From IMG/VR virus record IMGVR_UViG_3300042197_001004, positions 1 through 24,286 of that record: 24,286 nt of DNA; one strand, written 5' to 3'. Below, one piece after another: positions 7,128 through 24,286 of this stretch. The position numbers and the translations under genes were made by a program. The stretch's first letter is position 1, and every line of letters begins with the position of its first letter. Source of the stretch: a virus. The notes under the pieces are model-generated. The model made no database searches. It was not told the origin of the DNA and saw only the letters and a list, made by a program, of their open reading frames with translations.

Positions 7128-7766
7128 ATGCCTACAGGCAGCCCAAACGCTGGCTATAAAACATTTAACTCAGGTGATGTTTTAACAGCAGCACAGGTTC
7201 AATACTACCTGCAAAATCAGTCAATCATGTTCTTTGCTGACGCTGCAGCGAGAGACGCTGCTCTCACAGCAGGTATAAAGCAAGAAGGTATGTTTGCATA
7301 TCTTGCTGATACAAATACATTAACATTTTATAATGGAGCATCTTGGGACAACTATGAAGATCAAACTCTTCCAACATTTGCTTCACCAAAGGAAATAAAT
7401 ACAACAGATATAGGTCCCGCTACAGGTACTGTAAATGTTGATGTTTCTACATCCTCAATATTAATTTATACAACAGATGCTTCAGGTAACTGGACGCTAA
7501 ATGTTAGAGGAAATAGCACAACCACTCTTAACTCAATTATGGACAGTGGTGAACAGATTACTGTAGTCTTTGAAACACCTAATGGTGCGATTGCTTATTA
7601 CCCTACCGATTTTACTATTGATGGATCAGCAGTAACTCCTAAATGGTTAGGTGGAACAGCACCTGTATCTGGTAATATTAACTCTACAGATGTATATATC
7701 TATACAATTAGAAAAACAGGAGCAAATACATATACTGTTCTTGCTTCACAAAATAAGTTTGCTTAA
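7128..7766 (+). CDS. Tail fibre / baseplate protein with actinophage-type N-terminus
   Basis: AAGGAG at 7116-7121 serves the ATG at 7128. The 212-residue product starts with a short anchor (YKTFNSGDVLTAAQVQYYL, then QSIMFFADAAARDAAL) that recurs at the N-terminus of many phage tail-tip proteins. It is followed by GMFAYLADTNTLTFYNGASW, the usual adhesion-type beta module in which a small plug displays W/Y residues. The C-terminal half is Thr/Ser-rich beta structure (STSSILIYTTDASGNWTLNV and YIYTIRKTGANTYTVLAS) ending in a likely receptor-facing or trimerising domain. It lies between the hub and the Ala-Pro protein, so it may be the attachment point for that fibre. Exact receptor role is unknown. 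Confidence 0.65.
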   Translation: MPTGSPNAGYKTFNSGDVLTAAQVQYYLQNQSIMFFADAAARDAALTAGIKQEGMFAYLADTNTLTFYNGASWDNYEDQTLPTFASPKEINTTDIGPATGTVNVDVSTSSILIYTTDASGNWTLNVRGNSTTTLNSIMDSGEQITVVFETPNGAIAYYPTDFTIDGSAVTPKWLGGTAPVSGNINSTDVYIYTIRKTGANTYTVLASQNKFA

Positions 7767-7786: not shown

Positions 7787-8398
7787 GTGAGTCCATTAGA
7801 GCGTCATCCAAGTGGCATAGGAATAGTGTTGCGAGCACCTGTCGCAGCACCAGTTCCTGCACCAGCCCCTGCACCTATACCTGTTCCCGCTCCTGCTCCT
7901 ATTCCTGTTCCAGCACCAGCACCTATTCCTGTGCCTGCTCCAGCACCTATTCCTGTGCCTGCTCCAGCACCTATTCCTGTGCCTGCACCTGCACCTGCCC
8001 CAGTAGCACCTTCACCAGCACCTATTCCTGTGCCTGCACCTGCACCTGCTCCAGTAGCCCCATCGCCTGCTCCTATACCTGTTCCTGCTCCAGCACCTAT
8101 TCCTGTGCCTGCACCTGCACCTATTCCTGTGCCTGCACCTGCACCTGCCCCAGTAGCACCTTCACCAGCACCTATTCCTGTGCCTGCACCTGCACCTGCT
8201 CCAGTAGCCCCATCGCCTGCTCCTGTTGGAGTAACCTGTGAAAGCCAAATCTGTGCTACAGTTTCTGGTGCAGGTACATCTTGCGGTGCTGCCACTGGAT
8301 GCTGTGACTGTTCCTTTGAAGCATGTACCAACGCTTATGGCGTATGCTGCGCTGGTTGCGGAGGAACATGGAATGGAAGCGAGTGTAATCCATGCTAA
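7787..8398 (+). CDS. Ala-Pro repeat fibre-like protein with 12-Cys C-terminal domain
   Basis: GTG at 7787 follows AAGGAG (7776-7781) by five bases. Of 203 residues, about 15-146 consist of units such as PAPAPIPV and APAPVAPSPAP. Alternate prolines force an extended, rigid rod; Ser-Pro occurs four times as APSPAP. From VGVTCESQ on, the last 57 residues hold 12 cysteines with CC pairs (GCCDCS, VCCAGCGG), a compact disulphide or metal-bound knob. It has no signal peptide or membrane segment and directly follows a tail-tip gene, so a spike or fibre role is likely. The repeats look like the glycomodules of plant hydroxyproline-rich proteins, and prolyl-hydroxylase-like and glycosyltransferase genes follow. 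Function is inferred; a host-targeted secreted protein is an alternative. Confidence 0.72.
   Translation: MSPLERHPSGIGIVLRAPVAAPVPAPAPAPIPVPAPAPIPVPAPAPIPVPAPAPIPVPAPAPIPVPAPAPAPVAPSPAPIPVPAPAPAPVAPSPAPIPVPAPAPIPVPAPAPIPVPAPAPAPVAPSPAPIPVPAPAPAPVAPSPAPVGVTCESQICATVSGAGTSCGAATGCCDCSFEACTNAYGVCCAGCGGTWNGSECNPC
7967..8224 (+). repeat. Perfect 108-bp direct repeat within the Ala-Pro gene
   Basis: Bases 7967-8074 are identical to 8117-8224, with copies offset by 150 bases (exactly 50 codons), so gain or loss keeps the frame. Shorter in-frame units (CCAGCACCTATTCCTGTGCC type) repeat upstream from about 7860. Synonymous changes separate the other units, but the 108-bp copies are identical, suggesting a recent duplication. 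Confidence 0.9.
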
Positions 8399-8444
8399 TG
8401 CAAGATAATATAAATTATGCTACACTACTACTAAGGAGAACTAA

Positions 8445-8672
8445 ATGAAAAGAAAAATTATATTCGTCGTTGATGGCGAAGTAGGAATGAACTTATATTT
8501 TGAAGACGAAGGCGATGGAACTGCCAAGTTTCAAAGAAATGCTGCTCATTATGCCTGCTTAACTTCTAATCCTGAAATTATTGAAGTTCCTGCAGCACAA
8601 GAGATTATTGAAGATGTTGACTATTTTGGATGGGGTTACAAAGATGGAAAACTCACAAAGCCAACCGAATAA
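8445..8672 (+). CDS. Small acidic hypothetical protein
   Basis: AAGGAG at 8433-8438 precedes ATG 8445 by six bases. The 75-residue acidic protein starts KRKIIFVVDGEVGMNLYFED, has a middle AHYACLTSNPEIIEVP and ends with DVDYFGWGYKDGKLTKP, which looks like a short beta-rich domain. Similar small proteins occur next to tail genes in aquatic phages, but I cannot assign a function. It is the first gene of the overlapping chain that leads into the oxygenases. A role as accessory tail or chaperone protein is a guess. Confidence 0.62.
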   Translation: MKRKIIFVVDGEVGMNLYFEDEGDGTAKFQRNAAHYACLTSNPEIIEVPAAQEIIEDVDYFGWGYKDGKLTKPTE

Positions 8673-8910
8673 ATCTGCTTGGCAAAAATGGAAAGAAAAT
8701 CTTGGAGAAACAAGACCATGGGACTTGGTAAATCCAAATGCTGATAGAGCACCAGAAGAAGAGGCTCAAAGAAGATTGGAAATATGTAAAGCCTGCCCAG
8801 AACTAATTAAATTAACTACACAATGTAAAAAATGTGGCTGTGTTATGGCTGGTAAAGTTAAATTAAGTAAAGCATCATGTCCATTAGGAAAGTGGGGTCA
8901 ATATGAATAA
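8644..8910 (+). CDS. Zinc-ribbon-like small protein (Cys-rich)
   Basis: I take ATG 8644, inside the end of the previous gene, giving 88 residues; the frame is open from 8581 but that part is a shadow. The first half is polar with two Trp-rich stretches (SAWQKWKENLGETRPWD). The second half has ICKACPE, then QCKKCGCVMAGK, then ASCPLGKW: two CxxC knuckles plus further cysteines that could bind one zinc. This arrangement is common in short proteins of cyanophage and pelagiphage glycan regions and sits directly upstream of 2OG oxygenases there too. Role unknown; an adaptor or regulator of the next enzymes is possible. It overlaps both neighbours by 29 and 8 bases. Confidence 0.68.
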   Translation: MENSQSQPNKSAWQKWKENLGETRPWDLVNPNADRAPEEEAQRRLEICKACPELIKLTTQCKKCGCVMAGKVKLSKASCPLGKWGQYE

Positions 8911-9499
8911 AGAAGAAATAGCACCTGGAATAGTTGTTTATAGCGATGTAATTCCTGATAGCGAAGATTTGTATAAAAATATAGAAGAAGGAATGAAGTC
9001 TGCTGGAATATCCTGGGAAGTAGCAAGGGTAAAAGAACAAGATGCTAATCATATTAATCCAGATTCAAGAGACACAAGCATTATAGGAGTTCCTTATAGG
9101 CCGTTGACTGAACTAAATTTAGCAAGTCCATCAGAATTATTTAACAAGAATCTTAGCGATTTGTTTTTTACTCATTTTGATCCATTAGAAAAAGATTATG
9201 CTGCAATGTATTCAGTTGATATGAATTGGCATGATAGTTTTGGAGTTTTAAAATATGGAAAAGGTCAAAAATTTACTAATCATGTAGACGACCATCAAGA
9301 ATTTCATAGACGAATATCTACAGTTTATTATTTGAATGAAAACTATACAGGTGGAGAAATTAACTTTCCTCGTTTTGGCATCACATTTAAGCCTAAAGCC
9401 AATCAAATGATTGTGTTTCCATCTACTTATGTTTATAATCACTCCGTATCTCCAGTCATTGAAGGCGAAAGATATGCTGTAGTTAGTTGGTTGCGATGA
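8903..9499 (+). CDS. 2-oxoglutarate/Fe(II)-dependent oxygenase (prolyl 4-hydroxylase-like)
   Basis: The 198-residue protein shows the full iron and cosubstrate set of the prolyl-hydroxylase-like superfamily: H127-V-D129 in FTNHVDD, H180 in VYNHSVSP, and R190 in GERYAVVSW ten residues later, which should bind 2-oxoglutarate. STVYYLNENYTGGEINFP between them is the usual strand pair with Gly-Gly-Glu. The reaction would be hydroxylation of a target (often a proline in protein) with O2 and 2-oxoglutarate, giving succinate and CO2. The substrate cannot be read from sequence. The Ala-Pro repeat protein encoded two genes upstream is an obvious candidate. The start overlaps the Zn-ribbon gene by eight bases. 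Confidence 0.88.
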   Translation: MNKEEIAPGIVVYSDVIPDSEDLYKNIEEGMKSAGISWEVARVKEQDANHINPDSRDTSIIGVPYRPLTELNLASPSELFNKNLSDLFFTHFDPLEKDYAAMYSVDMNWHDSFGVLKYGKGQKFTNHVDDHQEFHRRISTVYYLNENYTGGEINFPRFGITFKPKANQMIVFPSTYVYNHSVSPVIEGERYAVVSWLR

Positions 9500-10056
9500 C
9501 AGAGCCACTATTAGTAACTGATGTTTTAAATCAAGAAGACTATGATAGGCTTCTCCTTGCCGTAGCCAATCCTAAGAGTTTTGAATTTTCTGCGGGATTT
9601 AGTAGATACTGCATTGCAGATAATAGCCTACCTATTCTAAAAGAATTAGCAGATAAGTTAGTACCTAAAGCAAGAGAAGCATTTAATAGCGAAGGTCTAT
9701 TACCTACATATGCCTTGTTTGCACACTATGAGGGTCAAAACCCTGAGCCAAGTTTATACAAGCACAAAGACGATAACGCATGTACTTATACTCTTGATAT
9801 GTGTGTTTATCAGGTAGAGCCATGGGACCTATTTGTTGAGGATAAGGCATATACACTTTATCCTAATCAAGCCCTTGCCTACTATGGAAATGATCAATGG
9901 CACTGGAGAGAGAAGTTCCCTAATCCAGAAACTAATTATGTTGCTATGATTTTCTTCCACTTTGCAGAACCTGATCATTGGTATTTTACTAAGGGTCCAG
10001 ACTATTTAAGAGTAATTAGGGGCGAGATATCAGAAGATGAATGGAATAACAGATAA
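9496..10056 (+). CDS. Second 2OG-Fe(II) oxygenase-like protein
   Basis: ATG 9496 overlaps the upstream stop as ATGA. The 186-residue product has a clear H90-K-D92 motif (LYKHKDDNACTYTLDMCVYQ) and a likely distal histidine H136 in YGNDQWHWREKFPNP, then NYVAMIFFHFAEPDHW. The usual arginine about ten residues after the distal histidine is not obvious; that position falls near NPETNY, so cosubstrate binding may differ. It is not a recent duplicate of the neighbouring oxygenase, since similarity is confined to motifs. A hydroxylase acting on protein or sugar is likely. Two adjacent oxygenases could modify different positions or substrates in the same pathway. Confidence 0.75.
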   Translation: MTEPLLVTDVLNQEDYDRLLLAVANPKSFEFSAGFSRYCIADNSLPILKELADKLVPKAREAFNSEGLLPTYALFAHYEGQNPEPSLYKHKDDNACTYTLDMCVYQVEPWDLFVEDKAYTLYPNQALAYYGNDQWHWREKFPNPETNYVAMIFFHFAEPDHWYFTKGPDYLRVIRGEISEDEWNNR

Positions 10057-11077
10057 AATATTCTTCCAGTTATGGAATCCTACTGGACTAATAAATCAAG
10101 TAATGAGCCTGGAGTTAGCAGTAGGACTTTCACATGAGACGAATGCACCTGTAGTAGTTCATTATGTAAGTAACAATGGTGACAACCTATACGACTTTAA
10201 AAAAGTTCCAATATATACTCCAAGTAGGTGGTACAACAAACAAAGAGAAGGTTTTACTAATCCTGATCAGTTCCCACATCTTTTAGACCTTCTTGATTTT
10301 GATGCAAACATCATAGTTATTGATGAAAAAATAAATGCATTTAAACAAGAAGAAGTAGTCATAGACGACACAATGAATAACTACTACTATAGCAATCAGC
10401 CAGAAATAACAGAATATGAACTGGCATTTGCTGAGGGTAGACAAAGATTACCATTAGATAGACCAGTACATCTAAAAGGAACATTAGGCTGGTATTCAAG
10501 ATTCTTTTATGGCAGAACACCTGAACTAAATAAGACATTATCTTCAGTTAGATTTAAGAAGGAATATACTGATTTGGCTCAGAAAATATCTGCATCTTTG
10601 GGTACATTCCAAGGAATGCACTTAAGGTTATCTGATCATGTTAAGATGTTTAATACTACCCAAGAGATGTTTGAAGACTGGCTAAATAAATTTGAACAAA
10701 ATAACATGCCAATTGTAGTATCTACATGTGAGCCAGGTCATAAAATGGTTCAAGACAACAAGCATAGATTTATTTTATTAGATGAATATATCGTTAATAA
10801 CTTTGCAGATGATTTTAAAGACCTACCGTTTCAAGACGAGGTAGTATTTGGGCTTATATGTAATTTAGTTCTTCATGATTCCGTAAATTTTGTGGGTACA
10901 TCAGGAAGCACCTATACAGCCTACATACATAGAGTTAGAAATCAAAAGGGCATTGAGACATGGGATTTCTTTGATAATCCTCCTAAAGCAAATGGATGGG
11001 CATATTCCTGGTTCGGTTATCCATTAGACAATGGCAGAAAAATGTGGTGGCGAGAATGGGAAGAATCTAAATGCTAA
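10037..11077 (+). CDS. Fucosyltransferase-like glycosyltransferase (GDP-sugar dependent)
   Basis: The 346-residue protein overlaps the previous gene by 20 bases. It begins FFQLWNPTGLINQVMSLELA, the GxxNQ-type opening found in fucosyltransferase-fold enzymes, where the N-terminal loop binds the acceptor. The motif H195-L-R197-L-S-D-H corresponds to the HxRxSD donor-binding segment of alpha-1,6- and O-fucosyltransferases. Near the C-terminus FVGTSGSTYTAYIHRVR matches the GT(S)xSTF(T/S) loop that holds the GDP diphosphate. A GDP-fucose-like donor is therefore probable, perhaps GDP-L-galactose or another hexose. The acceptor could be a protein Ser/Thr or hydroxyproline, or a lipid-linked glycan. 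Confidence 0.72.
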   Translation: MNGITDKIFFQLWNPTGLINQVMSLELAVGLSHETNAPVVVHYVSNNGDNLYDFKKVPIYTPSRWYNKQREGFTNPDQFPHLLDLLDFDANIIVIDEKINAFKQEEVVIDDTMNNYYYSNQPEITEYELAFAEGRQRLPLDRPVHLKGTLGWYSRFFYGRTPELNKTLSSVRFKKEYTDLAQKISASLGTFQGMHLRLSDHVKMFNTTQEMFEDWLNKFEQNNMPIVVSTCEPGHKMVQDNKHRFILLDEYIVNNFADDFKDLPFQDEVVFGLICNLVLHDSVNFVGTSGSTYTAYIHRVRNQKGIETWDFFDNPPKANGWAYSWFGYPLDNGRKMWWREWEESKC

Positions 11078-11148
11078 AACGAATTAGATATAAATTTAAT
11101 ATGTGGCGTAAATACAGGAAAATCAAAAAGGGTCCTGTGATTTACTAA
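11071..11148 (+). CDS. 25-residue basic peptide, chained between two glycan genes
   Basis: ATG 11071 overlaps the fucosyltransferase-like stop (ATGCTAA), and its own TAA 11146-11148 shares a base with the next ATG. The 25 residues include ten Lys or Arg (KRIRYKFN, then RKYRKIKKG), giving a strongly cationic peptide with aromatic residues. This is the only reading that leaves no gap in a chain where every gene overlaps the next, which supports translation. It could simply act as a coupling bridge, or the peptide could bind membrane or nucleic acid. No homologue can be judged. Confidence 0.5.
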   Translation: MLKRIRYKFNMWRKYRKIKKGPVIY

Positions 11149-12086
11149 TGCTATTTGATGTATTTAATCCCAGAATAATCCCTCATGTTGGATATGATAA
11201 AACTAATCCTAAGAAAAATTATTCTCAATCCCAGCCAATTTTAGCAAGGCATTCTGAGATAGCCAGACCTGAATATAACTATCAATGGAATAGCGATGGA
11301 ATAAGATCCATAGAACTCTCTACAAGACCCTCTGTAATGGCTTTAGGATGCTCTATAACGCTTGGACAGGGCCTTCCTGTATCCCTACGCTGGACAGACC
11401 TTCTAAGTGCCTCTATGGGCCTCTCAGTGGCTAATTTGGCCTATTCTGGAGCCTCTGCTAACAAGGTGGTATCAAGTTTTTTTGGAGCCATACATCAGTA
11501 TCAATATAAGCCTGAAATAGTCATTGCTCATTTTGCTAATTTTGAGAGATTTTATTTTATTGATGGGTATGGAAGTGGGCTTAGAGATTGGTATGCTAAT
11601 CATAAGTCTAAGAAGACCAAGGTTTCTGCACCATGGGATTATGAAGAAATATTGCCTTATGAATGGGTCTATTATCAAAATCTTGATCATATAAAAATGC
11701 TTGAAGCATTCTGTGAGTCTAATAGAATTAGATTAATGTGGTCAACATGGTCAAATGGATTAACAGATGATCAAGAGCAATTCTTGAAAGATAATTTTAG
11801 ATATTATGTTCCTGATACAACCAAAAAAGATTTTCCTTCAAGTTTTGAATTTGAATTTAGAGTGCATGTTGACAGTATTTCAGAACTGACTCCACATTAT
11901 GAAATGATAAATTGGCAGGGCTGTCATAAAGACTGGAAATATAAACATCCAGATATATTTGACTATGCCTATGATTATCATAAGATTGCTGGCGAATGGG
12001 GTCCAGGTGCTCATTGGCCTCATCCAGGACTACATAAACATTTACATATTGCAGAGTTTTGGAAGGAACAACTATGCCAGAAGTAG
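11148..12086 (+). CDS. SGNH/GDSL-type hydrolase or O-acyltransferase
   Basis: The 312-residue product has the three blocks of the SGNH fold. Block I is MALGCSITLGQG with nucleophile S69; block II follows at NLAYSGASANKV with a Gly; block III is IVIAHFANFERF with an Asn; block V may be HWPHPGLHKHLHIAEFW, supplying His. Enzymes of this fold remove or transfer acyl groups on sugars, peptides or lipids. In this setting it could trim or add an acetyl group on the phage glycan, or deacylate host surface polysaccharide. The sequence has no signal peptide, so it probably works in the host cytoplasm. It overlaps the next gene by 13 bases. Confidence 0.75.
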   Translation: MLFDVFNPRIIPHVGYDKTNPKKNYSQSQPILARHSEIARPEYNYQWNSDGIRSIELSTRPSVMALGCSITLGQGLPVSLRWTDLLSASMGLSVANLAYSGASANKVVSSFFGAIHQYQYKPEIVIAHFANFERFYFIDGYGSGLRDWYANHKSKKTKVSAPWDYEEILPYEWVYYQNLDHIKMLEAFCESNRIRLMWSTWSNGLTDDQEQFLKDNFRYYVPDTTKKDFPSSFEFEFRVHVDSISELTPHYEMINWQGCHKDWKYKHPDIFDYAYDYHKIAGEWGPGAHWPHPGLHKHLHIAEFWKEQLCQK

Positions 12087-12961
12087 TTAAAGAGTTTCCA
12101 ACAATGGATGGATTAGGTGCAATGCTATGGAAGAAAATCTATGCCATGTCATATGCCAAATATCATAACAAGTTGTTTGAAGACACACCAATTAAATGGT
12201 TCTTAATACATTCGTCAGATAAAGTTGAAAGCGAAGATGACCCTAAATATACTGAAATGCTTGACAAGTTTAACAATTTACTTTTAAATCCCTGGAAAGA
12301 TATAGATTTTGATTCTGTTCCAGATAAAACTTTATGCCCTCATATTGGTCTTGGTTGGCCATGGCAGCCAGGTATTAATGGAGAAACAGATTATTTAGAA
12401 TCTGCTCCAGAATTTAATAGGTTCTCTGATACAGTTCACAACTCAATAGTTATTCATATCAGAAGAGGCAATGCCATTCCTGAAAATCCAAGGTACACAG
12501 AAGATGAATTCTACTTTAATGTACTAAAAGATATACCTAAAATTATTGATGACTTAAAATTAGATAATCCAAAAGTTATTATTACTACTGATTCCACAAG
12601 GGGAAAGCCATATACTCCTATAGGTGAAGACCAAGTAAGAATGAATCGTCAGCCATTTTTATATAGTGATCAGGCTGGTAGTTATGCAACAACTACAATT
12701 GATATAGACTTGCTTAAAAGTGCTTACCCTAATGTTGAAATAATAGATGATTTAGATACATATGATGCATTTATTCTTATGCTTACCGCAAAAGTTTTAA
12801 TAGTTGGAAGTTCTTCGTTTAGTCAGTCTGCAGGACTATTGTCTACAAACATGGTTATCGCTATGCAAAACAAAGAAAATATGAATCCTTCTTGGAACAC
12901 ATTTAAAAATAAAGTTGGACAGTTAGATAAATGGGGTCATTATGAAAATACTTGGAATTAA
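12074..12961 (+). CDS. GT11-like fucosyltransferase family glycosyltransferase
   Basis: I start at ATG 12074, with GGAAGGA at 12061-12067 seven bases upstream; a TTG at 12059 would add five residues. The 295-residue product has IVIHIRRGNAIPENPRY (H128-I-R130-R131), the HxRRxD/N signature of alpha-1,2-fucosyltransferases and related GT11/FUT8-like enzymes. It has VIITTDSTRG (the TDD-like segment) and the C-terminal loop VGSSSFSQSAGLLS that contacts the donor phosphate. The N-terminus lacks the usual GxGNQ string (here DGLGAMLWKK), so it is divergent. It likely uses a GDP-sugar. Together with the gene at 10037 it suggests a glycan of at least two residues. Confidence 0.72.
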   Translation: MPEVVKEFPTMDGLGAMLWKKIYAMSYAKYHNKLFEDTPIKWFLIHSSDKVESEDDPKYTEMLDKFNNLLLNPWKDIDFDSVPDKTLCPHIGLGWPWQPGINGETDYLESAPEFNRFSDTVHNSIVIHIRRGNAIPENPRYTEDEFYFNVLKDIPKIIDDLKLDNPKVIITTDSTRGKPYTPIGEDQVRMNRQPFLYSDQAGSYATTTIDIDLLKSAYPNVEIIDDLDTYDAFILMLTAKVLIVGSSSFSQSAGLLSTNMVIAMQNKENMNPSWNTFKNKVGQLDKWGHYENTWN

Positions 12962-14384
12962 CGAAACAACACATGACGCATCAGTTACCCTTATAGAAAA
13001 TGGAAACATATTATTTGCTGGACATGCTGAAAGATTTAGCAAAGAGAAAAACGACTGGTACACAAATGATGAATTAATTGATCATGCACTATCTTATGGA
13101 GAACCAGACAGAATTGCATACTACGAACACAGATGGTTAAAGAAAGCAAGAATAATAACTCGTGGTGGCTTTGGTGGAGACAAGCCTTATTATCTCAACA
13201 GAGCAGATCTAAAATGGGTACCAAGAGAATCATTTAGCCACCACTTTTCTCATGCAGCAGCAGGCTACTATACAAGTAAATTTGATGACGCAGTAATTGT
13301 AGTCTTAGACGCTATAGGTGAATTCAATACAACAAGTATCTGGGTTGGCGAGGGCAGTAATATAAAGCCTGTAAAGAAGAAAAACTACCCATTTAGTTTT
13401 GGTTTATTTTATTCAGCCTTCACAAATCTTGTAGGCCTAAAGCCTAATGAAGAAGAATATATATTCATGGGAATGGCTGCATATGGAGATTGGCGTAAAT
13501 ATTATAAAGATGTAGAAAGTTATTTCCCATCCAGAAAAGAACAAGCCTACAATTTCCACAAAGGAATAATTGATTGGCCACATCATATAGACGAACAGGC
13601 TAAGTTTGATATTGCAGCAGCAGTGCAACATATTTACACAGTTAGACTTGCAGAGTTTATGCAATATGCAAAGCAATTAACAGGCAAAAAGAATTTAGTA
13701 TTCATGGGTGGTTGTGCTTTAAACTGTTCAGCAAATACCAGACTTTGGGAGATATTTGATGATATCTGGATCATGCCTAACCCTGGTGATGCAGGCAGTT
13801 CTTTAGGTGCCGCCGCAGCAGCGTATGGCAAGCATATAAACTGGAAAGACCCATATCTTGGCTATGACTTAGGTGGTCCATATCCAGTAACTGAAATTAT
13901 TACAGGATTGATTAGAAATAAAATTGTGGCAGTAGCATCAGGAAAAGCGGAGTACGGTCCAAGAGCGTTAGGTAATAGAAGCATCTTGGCAGACCCAAGA
14001 GATCCTGATATCAAAGACAAAGTAAATTTAATTAAGAAGCGTGAACTATTTAGGCCATTTGCTCCTGTAGTGATGGAAGAACATGCCTCTAAATGGTTCA
14101 AGATGAACTTTGCAAGCCCATACATGCAGTATGCAGTAGAGTGTTTACAACCAGATAAGATTCCTGCTGTGGTTCACAAAGACGGTACTTCAAGAGTACA
14201 AACTGTTAATAAAGAACAACATCCAGGACTGTACGAAGTATTATCAAATTGGTATGCCATGACAGGTGTTCCTGTTTTGTTAAATACAAGCCTAAATATA
14301 AAAGGGCAACCTCTTCTCAATGACGAGAATGACATTGTTGAGTGGGAAAAAACTTACAATACAAAGATAGCGGGGCAAATATGA
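12942..14384 (+). CDS. O-carbamoyltransferase (NodU/CmcH/TobZ family)
   Basis: The 480-residue protein starts MKILGINETTHDASVTLIEN, the typical start of the N-terminal Kae1-like domain. It then has SHHFSHAAAGYYTSKFDDA (metal-binding His), GGCALNCSANTRLWE and NPGDAGSSLGAA. The C-terminal YrdC-like domain has EYGPRALGNRSILADPRD, RPFAPVVMEEHA and TGVPVLLNTSLNIKGQPL. All are diagnostic. The family uses carbamoyl phosphate and ATP to make carbamoyl-adenylate and then carbamoylates a hydroxyl group on a sugar (Nod factor, tobramycin, bleomycin mannose). At 480 residues it is shorter than most members but both domains are present. It overlaps its neighbours by 20 and 4 bases. Confidence 0.9.
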   Translation: MKILGINETTHDASVTLIENGNILFAGHAERFSKEKNDWYTNDELIDHALSYGEPDRIAYYEHRWLKKARIITRGGFGGDKPYYLNRADLKWVPRESFSHHFSHAAAGYYTSKFDDAVIVVLDAIGEFNTTSIWVGEGSNIKPVKKKNYPFSFGLFYSAFTNLVGLKPNEEEYIFMGMAAYGDWRKYYKDVESYFPSRKEQAYNFHKGIIDWPHHIDEQAKFDIAAAVQHIYTVRLAEFMQYAKQLTGKKNLVFMGGCALNCSANTRLWEIFDDIWIMPNPGDAGSSLGAAAAAYGKHINWKDPYLGYDLGGPYPVTEIITGLIRNKIVAVASGKAEYGPRALGNRSILADPRDPDIKDKVNLIKKRELFRPFAPVVMEEHASKWFKMNFASPYMQYAVECLQPDKIPAVVHKDGTSRVQTVNKEQHPGLYEVLSNWYAMTGVPVLLNTSLNIKGQPLLNDENDIVEWEKTYNTKIAGQI

Positions 14385-15337
14385 AAACAGCATTAGTACT
14401 TGGAGCAGGCGGATTTATAGGAAGCCACTTAGTCAAAAGACTAAAAGAAGACGGCTTTATAGTTCGTGGTGTAGATCTTAAATATCCAGAACACTGGAAG
14501 ACCTATGCTGATCAATTTATTATTGGTGATTTAAGAGATCCAAAGTTTGTAGAAGAAGTTTTCCACACAAGATATGATGAAGTTTATCAATTGGCTGCCG
14601 ATATGGGTGGAGCAGGCTACATTAATTCTGGTGATAATGATGCAGAAGTTATGGGTAATTCTATACTCATAAATGTTAATGTTTTAAAGCAAGCAGAAAA
14701 GGTAGGAGTTAAGTCCGTATTCTTTTCATCTACCGCTTGTGTATATCCAGAATACAATCAGATGGATGCAGGAAGTATAAATACTCGTGAAGACACAGTT
14801 TATCCAGCAGCACCTGACACAGAATATGGATGGGAAAAGTTATTTAGTGAGCGTCTATATCTTGCATACAATAGAAATTATGGCATGAAGAACAAGATAG
14901 CCAGATATCACAATGTTTACGGTCCATACGGTACATGGGATGGCGGTAAAGAAAAAGCACCAGCAGCCATTTGTCGCAAGGTAGCAAAAGCAACAGATGA
15001 AATAGAAATTTGGGGCAATGGAGAACAACACCGTTCATTTCTGTATATAGATGAATGTATCAAAGCAACAGTAGATTTTTATAGACAAGATAAATACTTT
15101 GAGCCAATAAATATTGGTTCTGAGAGAAATGTGTCTATAAATGAGTTGGTAGATATTGTCTGTAAGATAGCAGGCAAAGAACTGACAAAGAAGCATGTCC
15201 CAGGTCCTCTTGGAGTCCATGCAAGAACATCACACAATGAACTAATCAAATCTGTATTAGGTTATGCTCCAGATGAAGATTTGGAATATGGACTAACTCA
15301 GACTTATACATGGATACAAGGAGAACTAAACAAATGA
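14381..15337 (+). CDS. NAD-dependent SDR epimerase, GDP-mannose 3,5-epimerase-like
   Basis: ATG 14381 overlaps the carbamoyltransferase stop. The 318-residue product has the extended SDR fold: GAGGFIGSHLV near residue 7 for NAD, DLRDP, FFSSTACVYPE for the catalytic Ser/Thr, and Y149-x-x-x-K153 in EYGWEKLF. The string AADMGGAGYIN is characteristic of GDP-mannose 3,5-epimerases, whose plant versions have ADMGGMGFI. RYHNVYGPYGTWDGGKEKAPAA and RSFLYIDECI complete the match. Such enzymes convert GDP-D-mannose to GDP-L-galactose or GDP-L-gulose. It could supply the donor for the fucosyltransferase-like enzymes next to it; GDP-fucose synthase or another hexose epimerase is the main alternative. Confidence 0.82.
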   Translation: MKTALVLGAGGFIGSHLVKRLKEDGFIVRGVDLKYPEHWKTYADQFIIGDLRDPKFVEEVFHTRYDEVYQLAADMGGAGYINSGDNDAEVMGNSILINVNVLKQAEKVGVKSVFFSSTACVYPEYNQMDAGSINTREDTVYPAAPDTEYGWEKLFSERLYLAYNRNYGMKNKIARYHNVYGPYGTWDGGKEKAPAAICRKVAKATDEIEIWGNGEQHRSFLYIDECIKATVDFYRQDKYFEPINIGSERNVSINELVDIVCKIAGKELTKKHVPGPLGVHARTSHNELIKSVLGYAPDEDLEYGLTQTYTWIQGELNK

Positions 15338-15570
15338 CGATAGAACAATGGGCTGGCCTATTAGTGTCTGCAATCACCATAGCGGTAGCATTTGCGGGAT
15401 CTGTAAGGTTTCTCGTGAAACATTACCTATCTGAGTTAAAGCCAAATGGCGGAACAAGCATAAAAGATCAGGTAAATAGATTAGAGGCAAGAGTAGACGA
15501 AATAATGGTACTACTCATAGAAGCAAATACTAAGAAGAAGAAGACTCTAAAGCCTAAAGGCGAAGAATGA
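15334..15570 (+). CDS. Small membrane protein with one TM helix and coiled coil (holin-associated?)
   Basis: ATG 15334 overlaps the epimerase stop; AGGAG at 15319-15323 is upstream. The 78-residue product has one hydrophobic helix (WAGLLVSAITIAVAFAGSV), then a cytoplasmic-type stretch with a short coiled coil (IKDQVNRLEARVDEIMVLLI) and a Lys-rich tail. It is the first gene of the lysis block and overlaps the next. This pattern occurs in small phage membrane proteins next to holins, where they act as holin, antiholin or anchors. I cannot tell which. Confidence 0.65.
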   Translation: MTIEQWAGLLVSAITIAVAFAGSVRFLVKHYLSELKPNGGTSIKDQVNRLEARVDEIMVLLIEANTKKKKTLKPKGEE

Positions 15571-18987: not shown

Positions 18988-19090
18988 TGATTTGTTAGCA
19001 GTTAAGGTTGCATTAATAAATGCCATTGAACAATTAGACTTCATCATTGATGGAGAAGAATGTGATTGTGAGGATGGTGGTTATCATTAG
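18947..19090 (+). CDS. 47-residue acidic small protein
   Basis: GGGAGG (18934-18939) is seven bases before ATG 18947, one of the best ribosome binding sites here. The 47 residues have a helix (YQKSLADDLLAVKVALINAI) and an acidic Cys-containing end (DGEECDCEDGGYH). It overlaps the previous gene (in another frame) by 41 bases and the next by 17. It is missed by a length cut-off but its start signal is strong. The ending resembles the acidic Cys tail of the protein at 22300, which suggests a related small family. Function is unknown. Confidence 0.58.
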   Translation: MNQNNLNYQKSLADDLLAVKVALINAIEQLDFIIDGEECDCEDGGYH

Positions 19091-20156
19091 ATTCCACATT
19101 GTGGCCCTACCTCATACACAAGTAACTAAAGCATTTAGTTCCTGTGCTTATACCGAAAAGACCTTAGAGTTTTGTAACATGATGACTTCTCTTGGTCATG
19201 AGACATATCTCTATGCTTCTGGGCCAGGTACTGAGGCAAAAGTAAAAGAATTTATTTCATGTCTATCAGAACAAAATAGATTAGATGCAGTTGGAGATAG
19301 GCACTACACATCAGCATCCTTTGATAATTCCCTTCCGCATTGGAGAAGTTTTAATAGTAAAGTAATACAGGAAATGAATAAAAGATTAGAGCAAAAAGAC
19401 TTCATCTGTTTGATAGGTGGAACAGCACAACAACCTATATCAGATGTATTTCCATCTCACCTGTCTGTTGAGTACGGCATAGGATATGCTGGAGTATTTG
19501 CTAAATACAAAGTCTTTGAATCTAATACTTGGAGATCAGCAGTGGCTGCTCAATACAGAAATGCAGCAGATATAGATATTAATTTCTTTGACACAGTTAT
19601 TAACGGATATTACAATGTTGAGAACTTTCCACCAGATTTTAATGTAGATCCATATTTCCAAGATTATTATTTATATATGGGTAGAATGACGCAACGCAAA
19701 GGTGTGGACATAGCCAGTCAAGCCTGTGAAGCAGCAGGAGTTAAATTAATCATGGCTGGTTCTGGAGACTACATTCCTAAGTATGGAGAATATATTGGTG
19801 AGGTTAAGGCAGAAGATAGGGCAAGATTATTTGCAGGAGCAATTGCTACCTTTACACCTACGATATATCAGGAACCTTTCTGTAATGTCCATATCCAGTC
19901 TATGGCCATGGGAACGCCTGTCATAACAACTGATATGGGTATCTTCACAGAAACCGTCCAAAACGGCTTTAATGGCTTTAGATGCAATACTCTGAAGGAG
20001 TTTATAAAAGCGACGGCAGATGTAAGAAGCCTTGATCCAAGAGCAATAGCCATAGATACATATAAGAAATATTCTACAGATATGATTAGATATAAATATG
20101 ATGCTTATTTTAAGAGATTATTGACCTTGTGGGATAAGGGCTGGTATTCAGTTTGA
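19074..20156 (+). CDS. GT4-family glycosyltransferase
   Basis: I take ATG 19074, giving MVVIIRFHIVALPHTQVTKA, the usual beginning of a GT-B N-terminal domain; ATG 19050 would add eight residues. The 360-residue product has the GT4 C-terminal domain: YLYMGRMTQRKGVDIASQAC, KLIMAGSGDY, then the E-x7-E-type region ATFTPTIYQEPFCNVHIQSM and AMGTPVITTDMGIFTE. It transfers a sugar from a nucleotide donor with retention. It is outside the main glycan cluster and follows early-type genes, so it could modify phage DNA or host surface, or extend the same glycan. The substrate cannot be told. It ends just before promoter P4. Confidence 0.85.
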   Translation: MVVIIRFHIVALPHTQVTKAFSSCAYTEKTLEFCNMMTSLGHETYLYASGPGTEAKVKEFISCLSEQNRLDAVGDRHYTSASFDNSLPHWRSFNSKVIQEMNKRLEQKDFICLIGGTAQQPISDVFPSHLSVEYGIGYAGVFAKYKVFESNTWRSAVAAQYRNAADIDINFFDTVINGYYNVENFPPDFNVDPYFQDYYLYMGRMTQRKGVDIASQACEAAGVKLIMAGSGDYIPKYGEYIGEVKAEDRARLFAGAIATFTPTIYQEPFCNVHIQSMAMGTPVITTDMGIFTETVQNGFNGFRCNTLKEFIKATADVRSLDPRAIAIDTYKKYSTDMIRYKYDAYFKRLLTLWDKGWYSV

Positions 20157-23038: not shown

Positions 23039-23557
23039 ATGAATGTTGGAAGGCCACCAAAACCAACGGAACTTAAAAGATTATTGGGCAATCCTGGTCA
23101 AAGACCCTTGCCTGATTTAAATAACATTACGCATTTGCCCATGGCAAAAGAAATTCCTGCGTATCCTGATACTCTTGGCGAGCAAGGAAAAAAACTTTGG
23201 GATCGTGCTTGGGCTATGGCGATTACATGGTTGTCACCAGTAAGCGATATTGATACAATTAGTAATGCGTCTTTCTTGGCTGATGCTTCAGAGGCAGCAC
23301 GAAATAAATATATGGCTACTCTGGACAATGCAGATGCGAAAGCGTATGTTGCGATTAATAAAGCCTACACTGATGCGTTAGCATCTCTTGGCTTTGATCC
23401 TATCTCACGATCTCGTCTTGGAGTTGCAGAAGTCAGAGCAGCAACTTCTTTGGATTTACTTTTGGAAAGAAGGCAGAATCGTGCCAAGGCCTTAGAGCCT
23501 GAAACGATAATCATAGAAAATGGGGCAATAAACAATAATGAAACAAATAGCAATTAA
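23039..23557 (+). CDS. terS: Terminase small subunit (P27 family)
   Basis: ATG 23039 gives MNVGRPPKPTELKRLLGNPG, the classic start of P27-type small terminases; a TTG at 23021 would add six residues. The 172-residue product continues RPLPDLNNI, then LGEQGKKLWDRAWAMAITWL and helices with EAARNKYMATLDNADAKAY, and FDPISRSRLGVAEVRAATSL. It should bind the packaging site and load the large subunit. The large terminase is not the next gene: an S1-domain gene overlaps its end by 20 bases. The large subunit presumably lies beyond the window. Confidence 0.85.
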   Translation: MNVGRPPKPTELKRLLGNPGQRPLPDLNNITHLPMAKEIPAYPDTLGEQGKKLWDRAWAMAITWLSPVSDIDTISNASFLADASEAARNKYMATLDNADAKAYVAINKAYTDALASLGFDPISRSRLGVAEVRAATSLDLLLERRQNRAKALEPETIIIENGAINNNETNSN

Positions 23558-24286
23558 CGATGTAGAGGACTTTATGGCAGCCATTGATGCGTCTATGAAA
23601 ACGCACAAGTCTGGCGATGTAGTCAAAGGCATTATAGTCCAAATAGATCGTGATGGAGCCTTAGTAGATATTAGCGGAAAGACAGAAGCCTTTATTCCTA
23701 AGAGTGAAATTAGCACTCGTAAGAATATTATAATTGAGGAAGTAATTCAAATTGGGCAGGAAATTGAAGCGGTAGTTATAGCAAAGAACAATGAAGAAGA
23801 CCAATATATATTATCCCTAAAACAGAATGAAGTAGAGTCTATTTGGAATGATATCCAAAATAGATTTGAATCATCTATACCTATTATGGGTAAAGTAGTC
23901 AAAATTGTTAAAGGTGGATTAATTGTTGATATTGGCGTTAAGGCCTTTTTGCCTGGTTCATTAATTGATGTAAATAGGGTAACAAATTTTGAGGCATATG
24001 TAGGCCATGAAGCCGAATTTATTATTAACTCAATTGATAGGGCTAAAGGAAGTATAGTTCTAAATCGCCGAGCACTTATTGAGCAAATGCAAAAAGAAGA
24101 CAAACAAATTGAATTTGCCAAATTAGCAGTAGGTCAAATACATAAAGGCTTAGTATCAGGTATTGCTGAATATGGTGTCTTTATTGAAATTGGTCTGCTC
24201 GCTGGACTTGTTCATAAAACTAAGATGGGTGAATTAACGCCTGATCAATTTACTGTTGGTCAAGAAGTAGAAGTTGAAATTATAGA
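23538..24286 (+). CDS. rpsA: Ribosomal protein S1-like (three or more S1 domains), 3' partial
   Basis: ATG 23538 lies within the end of the terminase gene; the frame is open to the window edge (249 full codons). Three OB-fold S1 motifs are clear. Domain 1, residues about 25-95, has GDVVKGIIVQIDRDGALVDI and AFIPKSE. Domain 2, about 112-178, has GKVVKIVKGGLIVDIGVKAF, LPGS, and ends VLNRRALIE. Domain 3, from about 198, has VGQIHKGLVSGIAEYGVFIE. The domain 1-2 strings AFIPKSE/AFLPGS and LNRRAL are those of bS1 proteins. S1 binds mRNA upstream of the start and helps it enter the 30S subunit. Aquatic phages are known to carry bS1 genes; the effect on host translation is inferred. Confidence 0.85.
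   Translation, partial: MKQIAINDVEDFMAAIDASMKTHKSGDVVKGIIVQIDRDGALVDISGKTEAFIPKSEISTRKNIIIEEVIQIGQEIEAVVIAKNNEEDQYILSLKQNEVESIWNDIQNRFESSIPIMGKVVKIVKGGLIVDIGVKAFLPGSLIDVNRVTNFEAYVGHEAEFIINSIDRAKGSIVLNRRALIEQMQKEDKQIEFAKLAVGQIHKGLVSGIAEYGVFIEIGLLAGLVHKTKMGELTPDQFTVGQEVEVEII

Follow-up and report, generated by a model that had tools for sequence, protein, structure and literature searches.

The sequence analysed here, referred to as the window, is a 24,286-base fragment of an uncultured water phage from IMG/VR (record IMGVR_UViG_3300042197_001004). Its left side carries tailed-phage structural genes (head-tail adaptor, tail terminator and major tail protein, assigned through PHROGs) followed by unassigned tail-region genes, and its right side carries lysis-type genes with an M15 peptidase and an SLT domain. 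Between them lie a gene for a tail-end protein, a gene for a proline-rich repeat protein that we call the stalk, two small genes and seven enzyme genes that run unbroken from 8903 to 15337 (Table 1). The initial annotation had placed the proline-rich gene directly upstream of the oxygenase genes; it does lie upstream, but the two small genes intervene. Across relatives of this locus, the repeat class of the stalk and the enzyme set switch in match, and the module probably combines the gene for an exchangeable virion protein, made of stalk and tip, with genes for enzymes that act on the stalk repeats.

The stalk gene has a GTG start codon with an AAGGAG Shine-Dalgarno sequence 5 bases upstream, and it contains 65 proline codons. 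Its seven PAPAPIPV units differ from one another only by synonymous changes and the array was detected by Tandem Repeats Finder, which shows that the repeats are not noise; the open reading frame is a real gene. The antisense open reading frame at 7804-8331 mirrors the stalk repeat. The roughly 130 residues of proline repeats described in the initial annotation are indeed present, as Ala/Ile/Val-Pro repeats set between a conserved leader and a Cys-rich tip. The spaced Ala-Pro and Ser-Pro repeats are of the arabinogalactan-protein and extensin kind, and Ser is retained in the VAPSPAP units. The leader, MSPLxRxPS(G)IG, is nearly invariant in the leader-type phages and is conserved in 44 relatives.

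The same annotation had listed two 2-oxoglutarate (2OG)-Fe(II) oxygenases, two fucosyltransferase-like enzymes, an SGNH hydrolase, a carbamoyltransferase and a GDP-sugar epimerase, and these labels fared unequally. Oxy1 is a clear member of the oxygenases, and its iron- and 2OG-binding residues H127, D129, H180 and R190, which include the HxD...H triad, are invariant in 29 relatives. A profile of Oxy1 run against the PDB matched the prolyl 4-hydroxylase (P4H) of Bacillus anthracis best (E 1.4e-9), followed by EGLN1 and other P4Hs. The top Foldseek matches of its AlphaFold (AF2) model (predicted local distance difference test, pLDDT, 93) were likewise prolyl hydroxylases, with a Pseudomonas P4H first (template-modelling score, TM, 0.74), an algal P4H in complex with a (Ser-Pro)5 peptide among the matches, and the chlorovirus enzyme vCPH (5c5t, TM 0.63) lower in the list. 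Oxy1 also matches phrog_61 and is less than 60% identical to every phage record. By profile and predicted fold Oxy1 is P4H-like, with conversion of peptidyl proline to 4-hydroxyproline (Hyp) as its predicted activity. Oxy2 gave no Pfam match of its own and no usable profile match in the PDB and owes its assignment to its predicted fold: residues H93, D95, H139 and R141 are invariant among its relatives, and its AF2 model (pLDDT 93.7), which matches NMAD-1 and PHD2 at about 1e-7 in Foldseek, has the double-stranded beta-helix of 2OG oxygenases with an HxD...H motif.

The carbamoyltransferase stands, with both its N- and C-terminal domains present (PF02543, PF16861), and the epimerase can be named more precisely, as it aligns full length to GDP-mannose 3,5-epimerase 2c59 (residues 12-330). 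The first fucosyltransferase-like protein is similar to protein O-fucosyltransferases (O-FucT) and to POFUT2 in particular: PF10250 was seen in 9 of 18 relatives (best 1e-4), the window protein itself falling below the curated cut-off of that family, and the profile match to POFUT2 reaches only the E value given in Table 1. The fucosyltransferase label is unproven for the second protein, which has an invariant HIRRG motif and for which no family match and no PDB profile match were found. The SGNH label is likewise tentative; the GCSxTxGxG motif is invariant, the GDSL matches are weak, a block I-like motif alone of the four SGNH blocks is present, and a profile search of the PDB gave no usable match. 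The O-FucT-like gene and the GDP-mannose 3,5-epimerase gene co-occur (19/22 versus 6/48 contigs, p 3e-9).

Table 1. Features of the stalk module and its borders in the window.
Feature	Position	Strand	Evidence or remark
Tail-end protein upstream of module	7128..7766	+	phrog_5906 1.8e-30; relatives in >100 viral contigs; independent tree marker
Repeat stalk protein, 203 aa (leader, Ala/Ile/Val-Pro repeat stalk, 12-Cys tip)	7787..8398	+	
Conserved leader MSPLERHPSGIGIVLR	7787..7834	+	position frequencies in relatives
Pro-rich repeat region, proposed substrate of the oxygenases and, via Hyp/Ser, of the glycosyltransferase	7835..8227	+	
Cys-rich tip; tip family found also with other repeat classes	8228..8398	+	
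Small protein, no family; recurs in several relatives	8445..8672	+	
DUF6171-like Cys-rich protein	8623..8910	+	PF19668 2e-5, phrog_13558 2e-16
Oxy1, P4H-like 2OG-Fe(II) oxygenase	8903..9499	+	PF13640 8e-19
Oxy2, second 2OG-Fe(II) oxygenase, divergent subfamily	9487..10056	+	predicted fold, invariant residues
Protein-O-fucosyltransferase-like (POFUT2-like) glycosyltransferase	10037..11077	+	profile versus PDB POFUT2 4ap5, E 0.0012
SGNH/GDSL-motif protein, possible sugar acylation/deacylation	11148..12086	+	invariant GCSxTxGxG
Putative second glycosyltransferase	12059..12961	+	invariant HIRRG
NodU/TobZ-type O-carbamoyltransferase	12942..14384	+	PF16861 5e-54, phrog_1601 1.6e-105, PDB 1e-53
GDP-mannose 3,5-epimerase	14342..15337	+	PDB 2c59, E 1.4e-86
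Small conserved gene, right edge of swapped region, outside cassette	15310..15570	+	clustered in 49/115 dereplicated contigs

Relatives were collected by scans with Oxy1, the O-FucT-like enzyme, the tail protein (two queries) and a GT60 enzyme. The resulting 295 sequences, including the window, formed 157 dereplicated groups, and repeat-enzyme counts were made over 95 dereplicated viral contigs. A low-complexity stalk gene lies immediately before DUF6171 in almost all contigs, and its repeats vary widely, examples being (TP)n, (VAPTP)n, (AP)n, (VVPP)n, (IIATPPP)n and (PPPVAP)n. Oxy1/Oxy2 occurred with Pro-rich repeats in 73 of 74 contigs and with low-Pro/Thr-rich repeats in 4 of 21 (Fisher 4e-14), the other 17 of the 21 being without any Oxy1/Oxy2. 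Leader-type contigs gave 40/41 versus 0/9 (4e-9), and those reached via the tail protein gave 31/32 versus 0/4 (8.5e-5). The same pairing was found for non-leader carrier proteins with other N-termini, where an oxygenase accompanied all 33 Pro-rich repeats versus 4 of 12 others. In the reverse direction, 37 dereplicated contigs had a close Oxy1 preceded by 3 kb or more of sequence, and 34 of these had a Pro-rich protein at most 4.5 kb upstream; of the remaining contigs, L042 carries a second Oxy1 copy far down a long cassette, L065 has short TP stretches, and L018 is a genuine exception in the neighbourhood of the enzyme. The link between fibre and oxygenases thus passes the comparison with related contigs that the initial annotation had proposed.

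The Thr-rich relatives add a control. Their mucin-like stalks, for example (APTTTTA)n, occupy the same position in the module, and their leader, tip family and DUF6171 are those of the Pro-rich relatives. Thr-only relatives have no Oxy1/Oxy2, and carry instead a radical SAM protein and a PF11397 glycosyltransferase (1e-34), a family that we take to be of the GT60 type and that is absent from the window cassette. GT60 includes the Trypanosoma cruzi polypeptide GlcNAc-transferase and the Skp1 hydroxyproline GlcNAc-transferase (PMC6939170, PMC8724618). The link between fibre and oxygenases, which had first been drawn from adjacency, is therefore strengthened by close relatives in which GT60 takes the place of the oxygenases. 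Among Pro-rich contigs Thr content is tracked by the presence of GT60 (p 7e-4, whichever threshold is used), and no contig has GT60 together with the O-FucT-like enzyme. Thr content was also tried as a predictor of the O-FucT-like enzyme and was dropped. DUF6171 is present in nearly all cassettes, oxygenase and GT60 types alike, and is fused to GT60 in contig L173 (L173:9825-11027); the fusion suggests that DUF6171 may work directly with stalk-modifying enzymes.

Pairwise DNA comparison showed similarity through the leader, its loss in the repeats, its return at DUF6171 and a second loss until the gene after the cassette; blastn similarity returns near this small gene in pairs with different cassettes. 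Island swapping alone would associate contiguous genes without any functional relationship. However, one tip family is found with Thr-rich, (VVPP)n, (TP)n and (VP/AP)n stalks, and the tip is encoded between the repeats and the enzymes. When enzyme labels were shuffled within tip families, the Pro-oxygenase matching was 48 of 49 observed versus 39.9 expected (p 1e-4), and the matching of Thr with GT60 was 43 versus 33.4 (p 1e-4), which disfavours hitch-hiking on one island alone. The tail-protein tree shows seven changes in Pro-richness and seven in oxygenase presence, nearly always together, and the five supported independent pairs average 3.8 concordant and 0 opposite. Matching within tip families, its extension to non-leader carriers and the joint changes on the tree together argue for a function beyond linkage.

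Several observations weigh against this conclusion. Many contigs were retrieved via the enzymes themselves, and the tail-protein-anchored subset alone is free of that bias. The tree has only 5 supported switches, and the tree test alone is not significant (p 0.125). Contig L173 has (TP)n repeats without an oxygenase, and L018 lacks a Pro-rich protein next to its close Oxy1, though it encodes an FFPP-repeat fibre elsewhere. Four Thr-rich contigs carry a distant Oxy1-like enzyme, which is short and scores 80-95 bits versus more than 220 for close Oxy1. Distant Oxy1/Oxy2 homologues lie beside Gly-rich fibres in marine phages, so a tie to proline does not extend to the whole oxygenase superfamily. 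That the stalk is part of the virion, finally, is read from gene order only. Among the marine loci, L178, L187, L190 and similar ones have several distant 2OG oxygenases beside Gly-rich fibre proteins.

From the anatomy of the module, the enzyme families and the matched switching, we infer the following chemistry. Proline hydroxylation of the stalk is very likely: Oxy1, probably helped by Oxy2, would hydroxylate prolines in the X-Pro repeats, which would favour a stiff polyproline-II rod and create hydroxyl groups. O-glycosylation of the stalk is likely. Enzymes of the GDP-mannose 3,5-epimerase family make GDP-L-galactose, the 6-hydroxy analogue of GDP-L-fucose, which is the sugar donor of POFUT-type enzymes. 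The epimerase of the cassette would supply GDP-L-galactose, and the POFUT2-like enzyme would then be likely to place the L-sugar on Hyp or Ser of the stalk, where the carbamoyltransferase and the SGNH-like protein may decorate it. More speculatively, DUF6171 might bring the enzymes and the stalk together. The modified stalk would form a stiff and hydrophilic rod, bearing sugars and keeping the Cys-rich tip at a distance from the tail, with possible benefits in reach, stiffness, or protease or receptor effects. In its fullest form, which we give slightly less than even odds, this reading describes Hyp-linked glycoprotein stalks (Thr-linked in relatives) that follow a modular code, in which repeats, enzymes and tip are swapped semi-independently and selection keeps repeats and enzymes matched.

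A narrower version of stalk modification, possible though on balance doubtful, is that proline is hydroxylated only to stiffen the polyproline-II rod and that the glycosyltransferases modify Ser/Thr residues in the stalk or tip, or else further virion proteins, with no Hyp-glycan. The (VVPP)n contigs carry oxygenases and radical SAM proteins but none of the glycosyltransferase families used here, and hydroxylation alone may therefore suffice in those phages; POFUT2 acts on Ser/Thr (PMC6939170), and such an acceptor remains in the Ser-containing units of the window stalk. Nevertheless, the nearly Thr-free (AP/IP/VP)n stalks bear the richest glycosylation cassette, and they offer few acceptors beyond Hyp and Ser.

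We consider it unlikely that the cassette instead remodels host surface glycans or phage DNA, for superinfection exclusion or restriction evasion, the stalk being an unmodified spacer linked to it by a shared hypervariable island. The module does behave as a recombination island whose flanks match and whose middle differs, and small glycans are substrates of NodU-type carbamoyltransferases elsewhere. For freshwater actinophages, glycosylation of DNA or of the cell wall has been offered as the role of their glycosyltransferases (PMC10202952). However, the enzymes are predicted by repeat composition and not by the tip encoded between them (p 1e-4), the chemistry suits the repeat class (P4H-like enzymes with Pro, GT60 with Thr and, in many contigs, both with both), the rule extends to unrelated carrier proteins, and no DNA-modification enzyme was recognised in the module. 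Hydroxylation of Val, Ile, Ala, Asn or Lys in low-complexity fibres generally is quite improbable, since Pro content is tracked by close Oxy1/Oxy2 and prolyl hydroxylases are the best sequence and fold matches of Oxy1, even though distant homologues accompany Gly-rich fibres and V/I-containing repeats often come with extra oxygenases and a JmjC-like protein.

Other loci and genes deserve mention. Thr-rich mucin-like stalks with a GT60-type (PF11397) enzyme, a radical SAM/SPASM protein and an epimerase occur in L139, L140 (= L198), L153 and L258-L294, and possibly form a phage mucin system in their own right. The (VVPP)n stalks of L121, L149, L162, L200, L208, L218, L220 and L233 mostly come with extra Oxy2 copies and a different radical SAM protein, which may modify the stalk too. 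Some Pro-rich/FFPP fibres appear to end in an intein/Hint-type self-processing domain (L018:15275-16558, L095:5989-7398, L164:8544-10277), two of the three finishing in SHNK or THNK. Outside the cassette, the window encodes a further group-1 glycosyltransferase at 19047-20156 (PF00534), common to some relatives, and a protein with repeated S1 RNA-binding domains at 23538-24284 (PF00575, 1.6e-33), which is ribosomal protein S1-like and runs past the contig end. Searches with the tail protein against genome contigs, for hosts or prophages, gave no match. No O-FucT-like enzyme was found in isolated phages, a GT60 query gave only two matches there (28% identity), and the GT60 profile had no usable match in the PDB. 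In the isolated phages examined, none of the DUF6171 relatives, several of which lie near adhesin or fibre genes, accompanies a Pro/Thr-rich stalk, and thus no isolate emerged in which the system could be tested directly. In the freshwater Synechococcus phage S-SRM01 (L298:4399-5856), an annotated flavin-dependent halogenase lies beside an adhesin tip gene and a DUF6171-like gene, and adhesin halogenation is possible there.

2OG oxygenases are common, unexplained genes of aquatic phages. A 2022 survey stated that the viral use of prolyl 4-hydroxylase “remains cryptic” (PMC9301287). With a likely substrate encoded near the enzyme and relatives that serve as natural controls (Pro only, Thr only, both), phage prolyl hydroxylation becomes directly testable, as does a plant-like glycoprotein pathway in a bacterial virus. 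The module also hints at a way in which phages vary the stalks that face receptors, and it provides numerous small enzymes, each with a simple repeat substrate. If the modular-code reading is true, bacterial viruses have a Hyp-O-glycan pathway and supply a natural collection of substrates matched to their enzymes.

Freshwater actinophages are known to carry collagen-like genes in hypervariable islands for host recognition (PMC10202952). In the open-access literature we came across no account of phage fibres containing hydroxyproline, nor of a modification cassette that matches the repeats of a stalk. The PHROG 61 2OG oxygenases of cyanophages resemble EGLN3 (PMC12774648) and, like Oxy1, have a prolyl-hydroxylase fold; no substrate was proposed there. 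The mycobacteriophages Che8, Corndog and Myrna glycosylate their own virion proteins with phage glycosyltransferases (Freeman et al. 2023, cited in PMC12363180), but the targets are capsid and tail-tube proteins, and the citing article describes no repeat stalk, prolyl hydroxylase or matching of repeats and enzymes. GT60 enzymes act on Hyp or on mucin-type Ser/Thr in the Skp1 prolyl-hydroxylase/Gnt1 system and as the T. cruzi mucin GlcNAc-transferase (PMC6939170, PMC8724618); the Thr-rich phage stalks with GT60 resemble the T. cruzi case, although both of these systems are eukaryotic. A virus-encoded P4H like Oxy1 is known from chlorovirus PBCV-1 (vCPH; Eriksson et al. 1999, cited in PMC7019647 and PMC9301287) and was, according to the title of that work, studied with viral peptide substrates. 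It belongs to a eukaryotic virus, however, and the title and the citing articles describe no neighbouring substrate gene whose enzyme set matches and switches with it. Its viral peptide substrates are reportedly of the Pro-rich repeat type. A chlorovirus review cites a report that hydroxyproline was undetected in PBCV-1 particles. The hydroxyproline-rich glycoproteins of plants and green algae (arabinogalactan proteins and extensins) combine Ala-Pro/Ser-Pro repeats, P4H and subsequent O-glycosylation (PMC8724618), as proposed here. They differ in forming a cell-wall system with Gal and L-Ara transferases of other families, whereas the phage has a POFUT2-like enzyme and GDP-mannose 3,5-epimerase. 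By analogy, the phage module would work like the plant hydroxyproline-rich glycoprotein and chlorovirus P4H systems, and we predict that its stalk belongs among the hydroxyproline-rich glycoproteins.

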